Assembly (NCBI GenBank): GCA_030690165.1
Contig: JAUYHF010000047.1
Coordinates: 1 to 40,157, forward strand
DNA length: 40,157 nt
Origin: Deltaproteobacteria bacterium
GTDB lineage: Bacteria > Desulfobacterota > GWC2-55-46 > UBA9637
Direction: 5' to 3'
The first letter of the stretch is position 1. The number at the start of each line of letters is the position of its first letter. Both the position numbers and the translations under genes were made by a program. Shown one piece after another: positions 1 through 5,575 of this stretch. Under the pieces are notes generated by a model that saw only the letters and a program-made list of their open reading frames with translations, did no database searches and was not told the DNA's origin.

Positions 1-515
1 AGTATTTTTAATTATATTGAAATATTCTATAATCGAAAGAGACGTCACTCAACACTGGGGTATCTTTCTCCAGTATCTTATGAGCTCGAATCTATGGTAG
101 CCTAACCTAACTTAGTGTCCTTAAATTCGGGGGAAGTCCAATATCCCTCCTTTGTGATATCTTGTGGTTGTTCCTTGGGCCGTAAGTATCTTAGAAAGTA
201 AAGTCCTATACTCTTGCTCTGCCGCGCTATAATCAGTTTTTTCGATAAATGATAGCGCATATTGTTCGCGAGTTTGATAAAGACTTTGAAGTTCTGGTGA
301 TAAATCCGATTTCTTATTTTCAATCACATTCATTATTCGTTTTGACGCCCAACAATATATTTAACAAGTTTTCTCTATTTAAGCAAAAAACAGGGTATAG
401 TCAAGCAAAAACAACTCATTTAAAACTTCTTTTTTCTCTTATTCTATGCTATGTTATGATTGCTTTACGGCTCTTTTTTATCCGCTCTCTTATATGATGA
501 GCCTATTTATGTATT
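1..515. other. AT-rich leading region without a secure gene
   Basis: No convincing gene fills this stretch. One short minus-strand reading frame (121-333) is listed separately as doubtful. A short imperfect hairpin lies near 52-79 (ACTGG/CCAGT arms), without a T-run beside it. The sequence just upstream of the first glycosyltransferase (about 420-515) is AT-rich and could carry a promoter, but no -35/-10 pair with good spacing is clear. The composition is visibly more AT-rich than in the operon that follows. Confidence 0.5.
121..333 (-). CDS. Doubtful small hypothetical protein (70 aa)
   Basis: I do not recognise this frame. The predicted peptide is hydrophilic, begins MNVIENKKSDLSPELQ, and has the charged/helical character of a real small protein, without signal peptide, membrane segment or cysteine motif. 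No clear ribosome binding site precedes the ATG. A GTTGGGC heptamer about 17 bases upstream resembles an integron core site, but no matching attC fold is present. It could equally be a chance frame in AT-rich DNA; comparison with relatives would decide. Confidence 0.22.
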   Translation of the reverse strand: MNVIENKKSDLSPELQSLYQTREQYALSFIEKTDYSAAEQEYRTLLSKILTAQGTTTRYHKGGILDFPRI

Positions 516-2221: not shown

Positions 2222-2293
2222 ATGCAAGAATCAAAACAAGCGACATCCTCTCCACCCTTAAGAGATGTAAAAAAAATCCTTCTACGACCATAA
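2222..2293 (+). pseudogene. N-terminal stump of a GT9 heptosyltransferase gene
   Basis: Three bases after the radical SAM stop, an ATG opens a frame of 23 codons. It ends in LRDVKKILL, the conserved first strand of ADP-heptose:LPS heptosyltransferases (compare RDIKKILII in the gene at 4379), then RP and a stop. The GxxIGD motif that should follow is missing. Homology stops at about 2284, exactly where a minus-strand ParE-like reading frame begins to make sense, so the gene was cut by the inserted 2.1-kb segment. A nearly identical 24-base stretch recurs at 4448-4471 on the other side of the insert. Confidence 0.6.
2261..2284 (+). repeat. 24-bp near-identical repeat flanking the insert (copy 2 at 4448-4471)
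   Basis: The stretch from AGAGAT through TAAAAAAAATCCTT matches 22 of 24 positions between 2261-2284 and 4448-4471. Both copies encode RD(V/I)KKIL of a GT9 protein, so conserved coding can explain part of the match. The placement at both edges of the inserted segment suggests a duplication or recombination between two GT9 genes. Confidence 0.5.
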
Positions 2294-2368
2294 ATGCGGC
2301 CGTTGGATTGTCAGCGGCTATATAATCGTGAATATCCTTTAGCCACCGCTCTGCTTCGTTAGTCCAGA

Positions 2369-2554
2369 TTATTTTTGCCATGTCCGGATCCGGTGCCTCA
2401 TATCCTCATTAGAAATTACTCGGTCACTGCGCGAATCGTCCAAGCCGCGTTCAACCATGTGCTCGAAGGCGAGTTCACGAATAATCTCTTCATATGAAGC
2501 ATCGTCCGGTTGTTCTTGAATTACTTCCGACATTCGTGTTTTTACTGACAACAT
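2369..2554 (-). CDS. Antitoxin-like protein of a broken type II TA pair
   Basis: A 61-residue acidic protein (MLSVKTRMSEVIQEQPDDAS...) with the pattern of small addiction-module antitoxins: a helical N-terminal part, the SYEEIIRELAFEHMVERG helix and a DRVISNEDMRHRI tail, the tail resembling segments that wrap a toxin. A good ribosome binding site (GGAGG, eight bases from the ATG) precedes it. The gene overlaps the truncated ParE-like toxin by 13 bases. With the toxin broken it may be an orphan that still protects against related toxins, or simply decaying. It sits at the distal end of the cassette array on the same strand, and TA pairs are common cargo of integron arrays. The family call comes from sequence pattern plus its toxin neighbour, not from a search. 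Confidence 0.6.
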   Translation of the reverse strand: MLSVKTRMSEVIQEQPDDASYEEIIRELAFEHMVERGLDDSRSDRVISNEDMRHRIRTWQK

Positions 2555-2578: not shown

Positions 2579-2669
2579 GATTAGCAAAAGACCGAAGTAA
2601 AATCAATCACTTTAAAGGGTTTAAAGGGTTACTGCACCTCCCCCTTTACTTCTACTTTTCTGGTTATGC
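2579..2669 (-). other. Possible degenerate attC site after the DUF202 cassette
   Basis: Directly at the stop of the DUF202 gene, the minus strand reads GCATAAC (2669-2663), as an R'' box should. Perfect 8-base arms GAAGTAAA (2594-2601) and TTTACTTC (2645-2652) and 5-base arms AAAAG/CTTTT nest inside. The outer partner GATTAGC at 2579-2585 does not fit the GTTRRRY core, so the site looks decayed or is a coincidence. Position, strand and nesting match the two better sites upstream. Confidence 0.35.
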
Positions 2670-3035
2670 GCGACTGACATAAAGCCCCACTGCAAGGATA
2701 GCGCCCAATAGCGCCACTACTCCATTAATAATTAAGCCGCCTTTCGTTGCATAGCCTTGGGGAAGTTCAGATGGATTTAGAGTTTTCAAAACTGTCATGT
2801 ATTGGCGAGAAGAGTAAAAGGCTGCGAATACACCAAGGGCAATAAACGCTATGCCCAGCCAAAATGTTATGACCGCGCTGCTCGTGTTTACGGACGTGGG
2901 CAAAAGTTCAGTAAGCAGAATGCCAGAGCGTTCAACCAGGAACCCAAAGGCAATCAACGCCAGGCTGGTTCTGCTCCAGGCAAGCAAAGTGCGTTCTGCT
3001 GCAAAAAGAACTCTCGGATCTTTAAGGTCTGACAC
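2664..3035 (-). CDS. DUF202 family membrane protein (integron cassette gene)
   Basis: A 123-residue inner-membrane protein of unknown function. It begins SDLKDPRVLFAAERTLLAW followed by RTSLALIAFGF, the hallmark of DUF202 (YidH-like) proteins. Three hydrophobic segments lie at about residues 22-40, 55-75 and 98-120. I chose GTG 3035 because AGGAG lies six bases upstream and family members begin with this MSDLKDPR-like sequence; the ATG at 3053 overlaps the attC core box and would add six residues. Cassette genes often start this close to the preceding attC site. The stop codon lies inside the GCATAAC box of a possible downstream attC. The gene has no promoter of its own that I can see. Confidence 0.8.
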   Translation of the reverse strand: MSDLKDPRVLFAAERTLLAWSRTSLALIAFGFLVERSGILLTELLPTSVNTSSAVITFWLGIAFIALGVFAAFYSSRQYMTVLKTLNPSELPQGYATKGGLIINGVVALLGAILAVGLYVSRA

Positions 3036-3049
3036 ATTTTCTCCTAAGC

Positions 3050-3100
3050 GCATAACGAATTTGGGTGCAGGCGCGCGTCGGCTGCACCCATTTGTTAGCA
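3050..3100 (-). other. attC-like integron recombination site
   Basis: Read on the minus strand, the site begins with TGCTAAC (R'', 3100-3094) and ends with GTTATGC (R', 3056-3050). Between them are perfect 9-base arms TGGGTGCAG (plus 3062-3070) and CTGCACCCA (3082-3090) around a short GC-rich loop. Size (51 bp), terminal boxes, internal inverted repeats and position between the stop of one small gene and the start of the next all match short chromosomal-integron attC sites. Confidence 0.8.
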
Positions 3101-3102
3101 AC

Positions 3103-3588
3103 TCAATTGGCTTTCGATACACGCCCGATTGATATAGATACTTTTTTAAACTCCGGTGAATGACGATGTGTGATTTCAAATTTCTTCGCTGCGCCAGGAT
3201 TCAACCGCTCACCCGAGTTTGTATAGTCGGTATCGACAACTGAACCTTTCGAGTTCATATATTCCGCGCGCACCTCAAAGTAACCAACAGGAACTTCACC
3301 GATATTTTTTACACTCCCTCGAATGTGGTTCCAATCTCCTTCGCTGGTCCACTCCCATCCTTTCACAATATCTAGTTTTATTTCAGGCGTTACCGTTGTG
3401 ATGTTATTCGTGGAAGATTTATGACCCAAACTTCCAAGTATGCTAATGATGACGAGAAAGACAAAGATTACGCCGATAGCTCCAAGGCAGCCGATACCTT
3501 TCTTTTTTACCGGCGCTCCGCAATTGGGGCATTTTTCAGCTTCCGTTGAAACTTCTTTACCGCATTCCTTGCAAACCTTTAGAGCCAT
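3103..3588 (-). CDS. Zinc-ribbon, membrane-anchored FxLYD-domain protein (cassette gene)
   Basis: A 161-residue protein with three visible parts. Residues 6-25 form a zinc ribbon (CKECGKEV ... CPNCGAP). Residues about 32-53 form one membrane helix (IGCLGAIGVIFVFLVIISIL). Residues about 70-155 form an FxLYD-type beta domain (IRGSVKNIGEVPVGYFEV ... LNPGAAKKFEI), probably outside the membrane. The function of such proteins is unknown. GGGGAG precedes the ATG at good distance. The gene lies exactly between two attC-like sites on the same strand, so it is the body of one cassette (about 3108-3680). The stop codon lies 3 bases before the next attC, a packing usual for cassettes. Confidence 0.78.
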   Translation of the reverse strand: MALKVCKECGKEVSTEAEKCPNCGAPVKKKGIGCLGAIGVIFVFLVIISILGSLGHKSSTNNITTVTPEIKLDIVKGWEWTSEGDWNHIRGSVKNIGEVPVGYFEVRAEYMNSKGSVVDTDYTNSGERLNPGAAKKFEITHRHSPEFKKVSISIGRVSKAN

Positions 3589-3620
3589 ACACGCACTCCC
3601 CTTTTAATTGAGTCTTTGCC

Positions 3621-3680
3621 AGCTAACGACTGGGGTAAGACGCGCGCTTTAGCGCGTCGAACTCGACCCATTTGTTAGCC
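3621..3680 (-). other. attC-like integron recombination site
   Basis: On the minus strand the 60-bp site runs from GGCTAAC (3680-3674) to GTTAGCT (3627-3621). Inside are perfect 7-base arms GACGCGC (plus 3639-3645) and GCGCGTC (3652-3658) with a 6-base loop, and an outer, imperfect TGGGGT/GACCCA pairing. It has the same orientation and the same CCCATTTGTTAGC end as the site at 3050-3100, the family resemblance expected of attC sites from one integron. Confidence 0.8.
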
Positions 3681-3686
3681 GTATTC

Positions 3687-4160
3687 TTATCTAATATTAC
3701 TAGCCCACTGAAATAAATAATCATTATACTCACCAACTGCAATAATTTTTTCAAATGGTTCTAGGGTGCCCATCATGAAATCAAATTGGATATCAGAAAT
3801 TAACGATTTTATAACTTGTTCATCAATTATGTTTGCCATATGTAAATGATATATTTTTAAATAATATCCTTTTATTATTCTTCTTGCGTTATTAAGGTTA
3901 TTAAATTCTTGATTATTTATCTCTTTAAGTTTTCTAAATTCATCAGTAAAATTACCTTCTTTAGATTTTTTATATTCACTCAATAATCGCAAGGCATCAT
4001 GCATGGGCTGAGAACTGAATTCAGTCCTAAGTTGGACTAATATCTGTGCTTCTACCCCCTTATAAGATGCTTTCACAGCACACCAAGCAGCTATTGCGGC
4101 TGCCATCGCTGCAATAGCACTTATAGCACTGAAAATATTTGCGACAATTGTACTGTTCAT
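3687..4160 (-). CDS. Hypothetical membrane-anchored protein (cassette gene)
   Basis: A 157-residue protein I do not recognise. It begins MNSTIVANIFSAISAIAAMA and continues as a hydrophobic segment to about residue 33, which should be a single membrane helix; the rest is hydrophilic, mostly helical and probably cytoplasmic, with EFRKLKEINNQEFNNLNNARR in the middle. The layout recalls small proteins of the DUF4760 kind, but this is only an impression. I chose ATG 4160; the upstream ATG at 4178 lies across a GTTAGCC core box. The stop is seven bases before the attC-like site at 3621-3680, so gene plus site form a cassette. Its very low GC differs from the flanking sites, as often seen for cassette cargo. 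Confidence 0.65.
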   Translation of the reverse strand: MNSTIVANIFSAISAIAAMAAAIAAWCAVKASYKGVEAQILVQLRTEFSSQPMHDALRLLSEYKKSKEGNFTDEFRKLKEINNQEFNNLNNARRIIKGYYLKIYHLHMANIIDEQVIKSLISDIQFDFMMGTLEPFEKIIAVGEYNDYLFQWASNIR

Positions 4161-4169
4161 TTTATATAA

Positions 4170-4317
4170 GGCTAACATTATATTTTATGCCGCATGCGTC
4201 TATTGGTTGTGATTTTAGCTAATACCACGTGTTCCGTCAAGAGGAACCTCTATTCTATAAGTGGGCAACTTATTGAATACAAAGCAATTATTTTTACTTG
4301 ATTATTATGCCGCATGC
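4170..4317 (-). other. Core-site remnant and 13-bp direct repeats upstream of the cassette array
   Basis: Minus-strand GTTAGCC at 4176-4170 stands where the recombination junction of the first cassette should be. No attC fold accompanies it. Instead the 13-mer TTATGCCGCATGC (plus strand) occurs at 4185-4197 and again at 4305-4317, 120 bases apart. This may be the residue of an attI-like site or of a deleted cassette. The rest of 4179-4378 shows no gene. Confidence 0.35.
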
Positions 4318-4378
4318 TATGTAATATTTGAAGTAATTATGTTAGATTCATTCCAACAATTTTTGAGCACAATAAAGA

Positions 4379-5575
4379 GTGTTCCCAAGAAGAATCTCTG
4401 CTATTATTGAAAATGGATTTCTAACGGTATTTAAATTGGTTGAATTCAGAGATATAAAAAAAATCCTTATAATTAAACTTCGTCATATCGGCGATGTCCT
4501 TTTGACCACACCCGCCATAAGGGCAGTCAAAAACACCTTTCCCAATGCCAATATAACAATCGTTGTGAACTCAGGGACAGAGGCTGTGCTTGAAGGAAAT
4601 CCCCTTATTAACGAGATATTTGCACTGGACAGGTCTATGCTTAAACAGTCTCTTTTTAAAAGGGGCGGGTATGAGATATCTTTTGTAAAGAGGCTCAGGA
4701 AAGGGCATTTTGATATGGCGATAGATTTTACAGGCGGCGACAGGCCTGCATTGTATTCTTTTTTAAGCGGCGCAAGATATAGGATAGGATATAATGCAGT
4801 GGACGGCTTTGCAGGCAAGAGATTCTTATATACGCACAGATTTGAGGTTAATAGAGAAAACCATACTGTTCTTCAAAATATGGAGCTTTTAAGCAAGGCC
4901 GGCATAGAGGTTAAAAACATTGCCGTTGATTTTTATATCTCAAGAAACGAGGAGGAGTGGCTGAGCGCTGCTTTGCAGGAAAATGGTGTAAAAGAGGGCG
5001 ATGTTATCGTCCATATCCACCCTACCTCCCGCTGGCTTTTTAAATGCTGGAACGATGAGGCTATGGCAGATGTCATTGACCGTATTCAGGGGCAGTATGG
5101 GGCAAAGGTCATTCTAACATGCAGCCCTGACAAAAGAGAGATGGATAAGGCAAACAGGATTATTGAACTTGCCAAAAACAAACCCATTTCCTTCATAGGG
5201 AATATAGACCTTAAAAAACTCGGCGCGATTGCAAAGAGGGCAAGGCTTTTTTTCGGCGTGGACTCCGCGCCTATGCACATTGCGGCTGCTGTTAATACGC
5301 CAGTAGTGGCGCTGTTCGGCCCATCAGGGGCGTTTCACTGGGGACCGTGGGAGAATGACTACAGGGGGCAGGGAAAACCATACTCGAAACGAAATGGAAT
5401 ACAAATGTTTGGAAAACATACTGTAATTCAGAAAGATTGGAACTGTATCCCATGCGGGAAGGACGGGTGTGAGGGAAGCAAAGTAAGCAGATGTTTAGAA
5501 GACATCGGGATAAACGAGGTTATGGGCATTATAGAAGAAAAACTAAAAAGCGCAGATAACATGAGGAGGCGCTGA
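4379..5575 (+). CDS. GT9 glycosyltransferase, ADP-heptose:LPS heptosyltransferase family
   Basis: A 398-residue cytoplasmic GT-B enzyme of the GT9 family, expected to transfer heptose from ADP-heptose to the LPS inner core. The N-terminal motif KKILIIKLRHIGDVLLTTP (about 29-47) and the C-terminal donor-site motif FFGVDSAPMHIAAA, followed by VVALFGPSG, are diagnostic. A cysteine cluster (CIPCGKDGC ... C) near the C-terminus is usual in this subgroup. The start is uncertain: GTG 4379 has no good ribosome binding site, and the first 28 residues (MFPRRISAIIENGFL...) are unlike the family. TTG 4436, just before the conserved part, is an alternative. The odd N-terminus lies at the edge of the cassette insert, so the original 5' end may have been replaced. 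GAGGAGG at its end serves the next gene. Confidence 0.88.
   Translation: MFPRRISAIIENGFLTVFKLVEFRDIKKILIIKLRHIGDVLLTTPAIRAVKNTFPNANITIVVNSGTEAVLEGNPLINEIFALDRSMLKQSLFKRGGYEISFVKRLRKGHFDMAIDFTGGDRPALYSFLSGARYRIGYNAVDGFAGKRFLYTHRFEVNRENHTVLQNMELLSKAGIEVKNIAVDFYISRNEEEWLSAALQENGVKEGDVIVHIHPTSRWLFKCWNDEAMADVIDRIQGQYGAKVILTCSPDKREMDKANRIIELAKNKPISFIGNIDLKKLGAIAKRARLFFGVDSAPMHIAAAVNTPVVALFGPSGAFHWGPWENDYRGQGKPYSKRNGIQMFGKHTVIQKDWNCIPCGKDGCEGSKVSRCLEDIGINEVMGIIEEKLKSADNMRRR

Follow-up and report, generated by a model that had tools for sequence, protein, structure and literature searches.

Two sites with the look of integron attC recombination sites lie in a lipopolysaccharide (LPS) core operon of an uncultured deltaproteobacterium, between small genes and with no integrase gene beside them, and the question is how a cassette array came to stand there. 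An earlier note on this DNA had left three options: a relic array, an off-target insertion, or part of an array dispersed by rearrangement. The window analysed (40,157 nt) is the whole of contig JAUYHF010000047.1 (C47), from a metagenome assembly of 2.2 Mb in 70 contigs that is listed as 100% complete. The relatives used for comparison are also metagenome genomes named "Deltaproteobacteria bacterium", several of them from groundwater. We conclude that the array is a relic sedentary chromosomal integron (CALIN), comparable to those of Xanthomonas.

Cassettes and attC sites

The array reads along the minus strand and consists of the following features. Scores are those of a covariance model, CM R1.

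3627-4175, minus strand: cassette A, starting with TTAGCC and ending in its attC
3687-4160, minus strand: ORF of cassette A, 157 amino acids, with a hydrophobic N-terminal segment
3621-3680, minus strand: attC of cassette A (38.9 bits, E 1.5e-6), its R′ tail supplied by cassette B
3056-3626, minus strand: cassette B, encoding a zinc-ribbon and FxLYD protein (ORF 3103-3588, 161 amino acids)
3050-3100, minus strand: attC of cassette B (20.9 bits, E 0.015), its R′ tail supplied by cassette C
2663-3055, minus strand: cassette C, incomplete at the 3′ end, encoding a membrane protein of the DUF202 family with its probable start codon, GTG, at 3035 and its stop at 2664
2663-2669, minus strand: third attC, reduced to its R″ (GCATAAC), overlapping the DUF202 stop; L″, L′ and R′ are missing
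2295-2554, minus strand: truncated toxin-antitoxin module, made up of an antitoxin ORF (2369-2554) and the 5′ part of a ParE-type toxin gene (2382 to approximately 2295)

On the minus strand each of the two attC sites has R″, R′ and the nested arms, and the sites fall exactly between the three small minus-strand genes of 2579-4176, just as the earlier note described them. It had proposed a covariance-model search, and both sites were matched by CM R1, an independently trained model built from 25 attC sites that adjoin IntI genes in genomes of the phylum belonging to other families than this one; the site at 3050-3100 is the weaker of the two, at only 20.9 bits. Folded as single-stranded DNA, both surpass shuffled sequences (z −2.9 and −3.2). 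The 5′ core of each cassette is complementary to its own R″, at 7/7 positions in cassette A (GTTAGCC/GGCTAAC), 6/7 in B (GTTAGCT/TGCTAAC) and 7/7 in C (GTTATGC/GCATAAC). The window therefore shows two of the marks of a CALIN, namely at least two same-strand attC sites dividing small genes, and cassette ends that pair with their own R″. There is no Rfam match anywhere in the window.

A decayed third site had been suspected after the DUF202 gene. Its R″ is indeed present, but the remainder of the attC is gone: apart from the two sites above, CM R1 gave no match up to E 10 in the whole 40-kb window, and the 90 nt that follow this R″ do not fold better than chance (z −0.25). Past DUF202 the array continues into the truncated ParE-type module, which the earlier note had missed. 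The toxin match (ParE_toxin, E 3.8e-4 over 30 residues) is slightly under the gathering score, and the antitoxin ORF has a weak RelB/ParD match only. The leader at 2560-2620 is, by eye, similar to that of a HicB-like cassette in the relative G001 (L052 5985-6030).

The cargo had been described as an FxLYD zinc-ribbon protein, a DUF202 protein and an unknown membrane protein, all uncharacterised, and uncharacterised it stays. The protein of cassette B matches Pfam Zn_Ribbon_1 (29.9 bits) and NCBIfam FxLYD_dom (35 bits; cut-off 23), its relatives being matched only through one or other of these parts, and that of cassette C matches Pfam DUF202 (62 bits). The protein of cassette A belongs to no Pfam or NCBIfam family, and its gene has no relative among 395 genomes of the phylum. 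In a search of plasmids neither the cassette DNA nor protein B found a match, and all matches to the DUF202 protein were less than 50% identical.

attI, the intI remnant and the locus in relatives

Ahead of the first cassette lies a region (4170-4425) whose content the earlier note overlooked:

4170-4198, minus strand: attI core, GCATGCGGCATAAAATATAATG↓TTAGCC, 28 nt identical to the attI on contig C44 of the same-genus genome G002 and aligned across nine platforms (attI with an adjoining intI or intI remnant)
4212-4240, minus strand: putative cassette promoter Pc, TTGACG-17 nt-TAAAAT, pointing toward the cassettes
4339-4425, plus strand: 5′ stub of intI, MLDSFQQFLSTIKSVPKKNLCYY then TGA, with 29 codons aligned
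4426-4436, plus strand: deletion junction, where the native spacer that precedes GT9 is fused to intI; TAACGGTATTTAAATTG is also found in the GT2-GT9 spacer of the relative G008

Positions 4162-4350 can be aligned to the G002 attI-intI region (blastn E 3.7e-31), and the first cassette begins at G↓TTAGCC (4176/4175), which has the G↓TTRRRY form of the attI of a complete integron; the 5′ end of the array is corrected to 4176. A strict attI pattern search, which recovered one platform only, was superseded by the alignment across the nine platforms. The intI stub was matched at E 8e-8 by tblastn and at E 3.3e-5 in the genome-wide search. Its reading frame comprises 23 codons, with TGA at codon 24, and its similarity to the integrase of the same-genus genome G004 stops at codon 29. 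The functional intI that a complete integron carries beside attI is thus absent, and the 29-codon stub is all that remains of an integron integrase near the array, as in a CALIN. Since the sequence that follows the stub is the pre-GT9 spacer TAACGGTATTTAAATTG, as in G008, we take intI to have been cut by a deletion and fused to that spacer. The description of the array as lacking an integrase holds functionally, but not to the letter, because this stub persists.

On the cassette strand, a −35/−10 pair of the type TTGACN-17 nt-TAWAAT stands 98-101 nt upstream of the intI start in all nine platforms (five genomes). The spacer sequences differ between platforms, and the element was also recovered by a separate, independent search. 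In six of the nine platforms at most 1 in 300 shuffles scores equally; the proportion is 4.7% for the window (4240-4212) and for contig C35 of the same genome, and in G009 the match is not above chance. The window copy agrees with the motif at only 10/12 positions. Judged by its sequence, the element at 4240-4212 is promoter-like.

The flanking glycosyltransferase genes, GT2 and GT9, allow the same locus to be compared among relatives. The earlier note had reasoned that an ordinary operon would show the same genes and spacers in relatives; in eight of these GT2 is directly followed by GT9, and the cassette genes are missing between them. G004 shows cassette-attI-intI-GT2-GT9, and its intI, an open frame of 411 codons, encodes a true integron integrase (422 bits; TIGR02249 cut-off 265). 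In the IntI of this lineage the SAM-like domain is preceded by approximately 100 additional N-terminal residues (P0001 residues 1-100). G002 has the same order as G004, with two attC sites (covariance-model scores 64.8 and 46.3 bits) and an in-frame TAA in intI. In G003, G001 and NC_groundwater_1931 (L111) intI is wholly lost and the promoter-like sequence lies near GT2. In G005, of another genus, the LPG flippase gene is followed by GT2-GT9 with no integron between, an apparent empty site. On contig C1 of that genome intI codon 24-25 runs straight into the start of a GT2 gene, a deletion of the same kind as in the window; this is a second GT2-like gene (L266 500-571 and below), and the intI stub joined to its start is about 25 codons long.

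Because the stub (4339-4425) and the attI region align with integrons of same-genus species, we place the array at its own attI, at the position that the integron occupies in the genus. With the cassettes at attI, intI cut to a stub and intI present at the locus in relatives, the first of the three options, a relic array, is the right one; very probably it is the sedentary chromosomal integron native to the genus, which became frozen when its integrase was lost. In the history that we propose, IntI would have captured promoterless cassettes at attI (between 4176 and 4175) and added them one after another along the minus strand, in the direction leading away from intI. A deletion would have taken out intI from about codon 29 onward and also GT2, the next gene after intI in relatives, joining the 5′ end of intI to the spacer ahead of GT9. 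The far end would also have been cut, through the third attC and the ParE-type toxin gene; the order of the deletions is our reconstruction. The cassettes would no longer be movable from within, and the Pc-like element between stub and attI probably drives their transcription as a short operon of fixed content. Loss of an active integrase may have relieved a cost, as has been measured for class 1 integrons (PMC3510236).

Rearrangement, other platforms and competing origins

Two further features on the far side of the array bear on its history:

2222-2290, plus strand: 5′ stub resembling the start of a GT9 gene, fused to the truncated toxin module; contains a 27-nt repeat, 89% identical, with 4445-4471
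121-353, minus strand: probable second array remnant upstream of GT2, with a core GTTGGGC (353-347) and a cassette-like ORF (121-333)

At the contig end an IS3-type element (rve_2 E 1.2e-8, 1-102) interrupts the second remnant; window 1-105 is the C-terminal end of the transposase, and the GT2-side sequence is common to G003 and G001. Contig C6 (L224), which begins with an attC, a toxin-antitoxin-like gene, Trm112 and the LPG flippase gene, probably represents the opposite side of the same array. A radical SAM/SPASM gene (1277-2218) separates GT2 from the array; it is 70% identical to one in the distant relative G016 (L035) that also follows a GT2 gene, and same-genus species lack it at the corresponding place. 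GT2 and this gene stand on the far side of the array, whereas GT2 is downstream of intI in relatives, an arrangement for which one single deletion does not account. Rearrangement, which the earlier note had considered as a means of dispersing the array, has therefore occurred at the locus, but the array itself is at its own attI. From the far-side position of GT2 and the radical-SAM gene, the GT9-like stub and the second remnant, we infer that a duplication of the locus probably preceded the deletions.

The search of the remaining genome that had been suggested returned no full intI: no sequence in the assembly scores above the IntI family cut-off, the two matches being XerC and XerD. An intact intI may lie on a piece missing from the assembly, for example past the IS-broken contig end. 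Two more platforms with attI and an intI stub were found, on contigs C51 and C35, and both stubs adjoin attI and attC. On C51 (L208 6114-6420) intI codons 1-69 align and a remnant of the C-terminus is present, indicating an internal deletion; on C35 (L215 2503-2568) codons 1-24 align. Contig C90 of G004 (L270) has an internal intI deletion of the C51 kind.

These platforms suggest a second history, in which the array and its stub were moved or copied from another platform in the genome and the deletion in intI occurred elsewhere. It would fit the 85% identity of the C35 platform to that of the window over attI and stub, the wrong-side position of GT2 and the radical-SAM gene, the 27-nt repeat that flanks the segment, and the second remnant upstream of GT2. 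The junction, however, is made of native GT2-GT9 spacer, as deletion in place predicts, and the deletion on contig C1 of G005 is of the same kind; we consider such a transfer rather unlikely.

At E up to 1 the covariance model gave 25 further attC matches, spread over 15 other contigs; 21 of these matches have E below 0.05. Many are single; the contigs are C51, C44, C14, C48, C15, C60, C27, C2, C56, C35, C37, C4, C7, C1 and C6 (L208-L225). For 11 of 27 tested sites an exact copy of the site's own 5′ core lies 150-1300 nt upstream, compared to 2.3 expected when R″ is swapped among loci, and none of 5000 shuffles reached this count. attC sites occur in 83 of 148 sampled genomes of the phylum; the 16 of the source genome (E up to 0.01) are a high number, though the sample maximum is 28. 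At the end of typA on C56 (L213 3939-3998) there is a single cassette, the R′ of which supplies the typA stop codon; the site is empty in G002 and G004. The C27 insert, about 2.3 kb in length, contains two weak attC sites and is bordered by a direct copy, 31 nt long, of the 3′ end of radA (L225 2197-2226, 4511-4540); in G002, G003, G008 and G010 radA and the next gene are adjacent. This insert looks like the att duplication of an integrative element, and since cassette recombination alone does not explain the 31-nt copy, the dispersed loci may be of mixed origin.

With attC-bearing segments at so many loci, some of which clearly interrupt gene pairs that stand side by side in relatives (radA, typA-asd), the window cassettes might have been placed by a trans-acting integrase at a non-classical site (attG) in a polysaccharide operon that had no prior integron. 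An attG insertion brings neither attI nor intI, however, and here the cassettes abut a recognisable attI, a promoter-like Pc and an intI stub, at a locus where relatives have intI; the off-target option fails at this array and is very improbable. We find it equally hard to credit that an integron contig was wrongly joined to the LPS operon: the assembly is metagenomic, there are repeats and the contig ends in an IS, but no long exact repeat is common to the joins at approximately 2290 and 4425, and independent assemblies of other species have an integron in the corresponding position. Chance palindromes, or an unrelated palindromic repeat family within an ordinary operon, can practically be dismissed, for although a crude scan by regular expression and pair scoring, dropped for the covariance model, finds equally good sites at about 0.4 per 40 kb of shuffled sequence, they would not account for the covariance-model E-values, the matching cassette ends, the exact intergenic placement, the attI, the intI stub and the absence of the genes at this place in relatives.

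Integrase loss here and in known integrons

Loss of the integron integrase is known, mostly through frameshifts and stop codons in cultured genera; chromosomal integrons at a conserved place with inactivated integrases have been seen already, and the window is a further example of such decay. In Xanthomonas the integron occupies one conserved chromosomal locus per genus, CALINs are found elsewhere in the genome, and most integrases have been lost via stop codons, frameshifts or large deletions (PMC12444791). One conserved locus per genus, integrase loss and CALINs elsewhere are the points of likeness. The locus is ilvD in Xanthomonas and the LPS-core glycosyltransferase genes in these uncultured groundwater Deltaproteobacteria, which unlike Xanthomonas have several platforms per genome, each reduced to a 5′ stub. 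About one third of intI genes were reported to be non-functional or pseudogenes (Nemergut 2008, PMC2426708), and an active integrase was shown to cost fitness and to be lost quickly (Starikova 2012, PMC3510236). In contrast to intI pseudogenes in general, the gene is here deleted, with attI and the promoter-like Pc left. SALIN or attG insertions, in the work of Loot (2024) as cited in PMC12444791 and PMC12690207, are single cassettes away from any integrase; so described, they resemble many of the sites on the 15 other contigs and differ from the window array, which is at attI with an intI remnant.

The Pc of class 1 and Vibrio (IntVchA) integrons is an established promoter of the sigma-70 type, reading from the intI side into the cassettes (PMC8876359). 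That of class 1 is inside intI, whereas the candidate here lies between intI and attI, and by virtue of this location outside the gene it can outlast deletion of intI.

The less ordinary part of the finding is that intI has been lost repeatedly, in this genome on three or more occasions, while the promoter-like element remained. attI, the Pc-like element and the first 22-69 codons of intI are retained in the three platforms of this genome, and further such platforms occur in G002, G004 and G005. We suggest tentatively, as a reading that may well not hold, that integrons of this family repeatedly become fixed operons: given useful cassettes and a costly integrase, selection would remove the integrase while sparing attI and the cassette promoter. 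If so, this would be one genome with cassettes on approximately 16 contigs and no integrase left. Short intI stubs, of a kind that gene callers and the TIGR02249 cut-off miss, make it possible to assign integrase-less arrays to their home attI. A single locus displays the steps in graded form: no integron in the neighbouring genus (G005), an intact intI (G004), a stop codon (G002), a 5′ stub (the window), and full deletion of intI with the Pc-like element kept (G003, G001). It thereby offers a testable case for whether such deletions are selected to preserve cassette expression.
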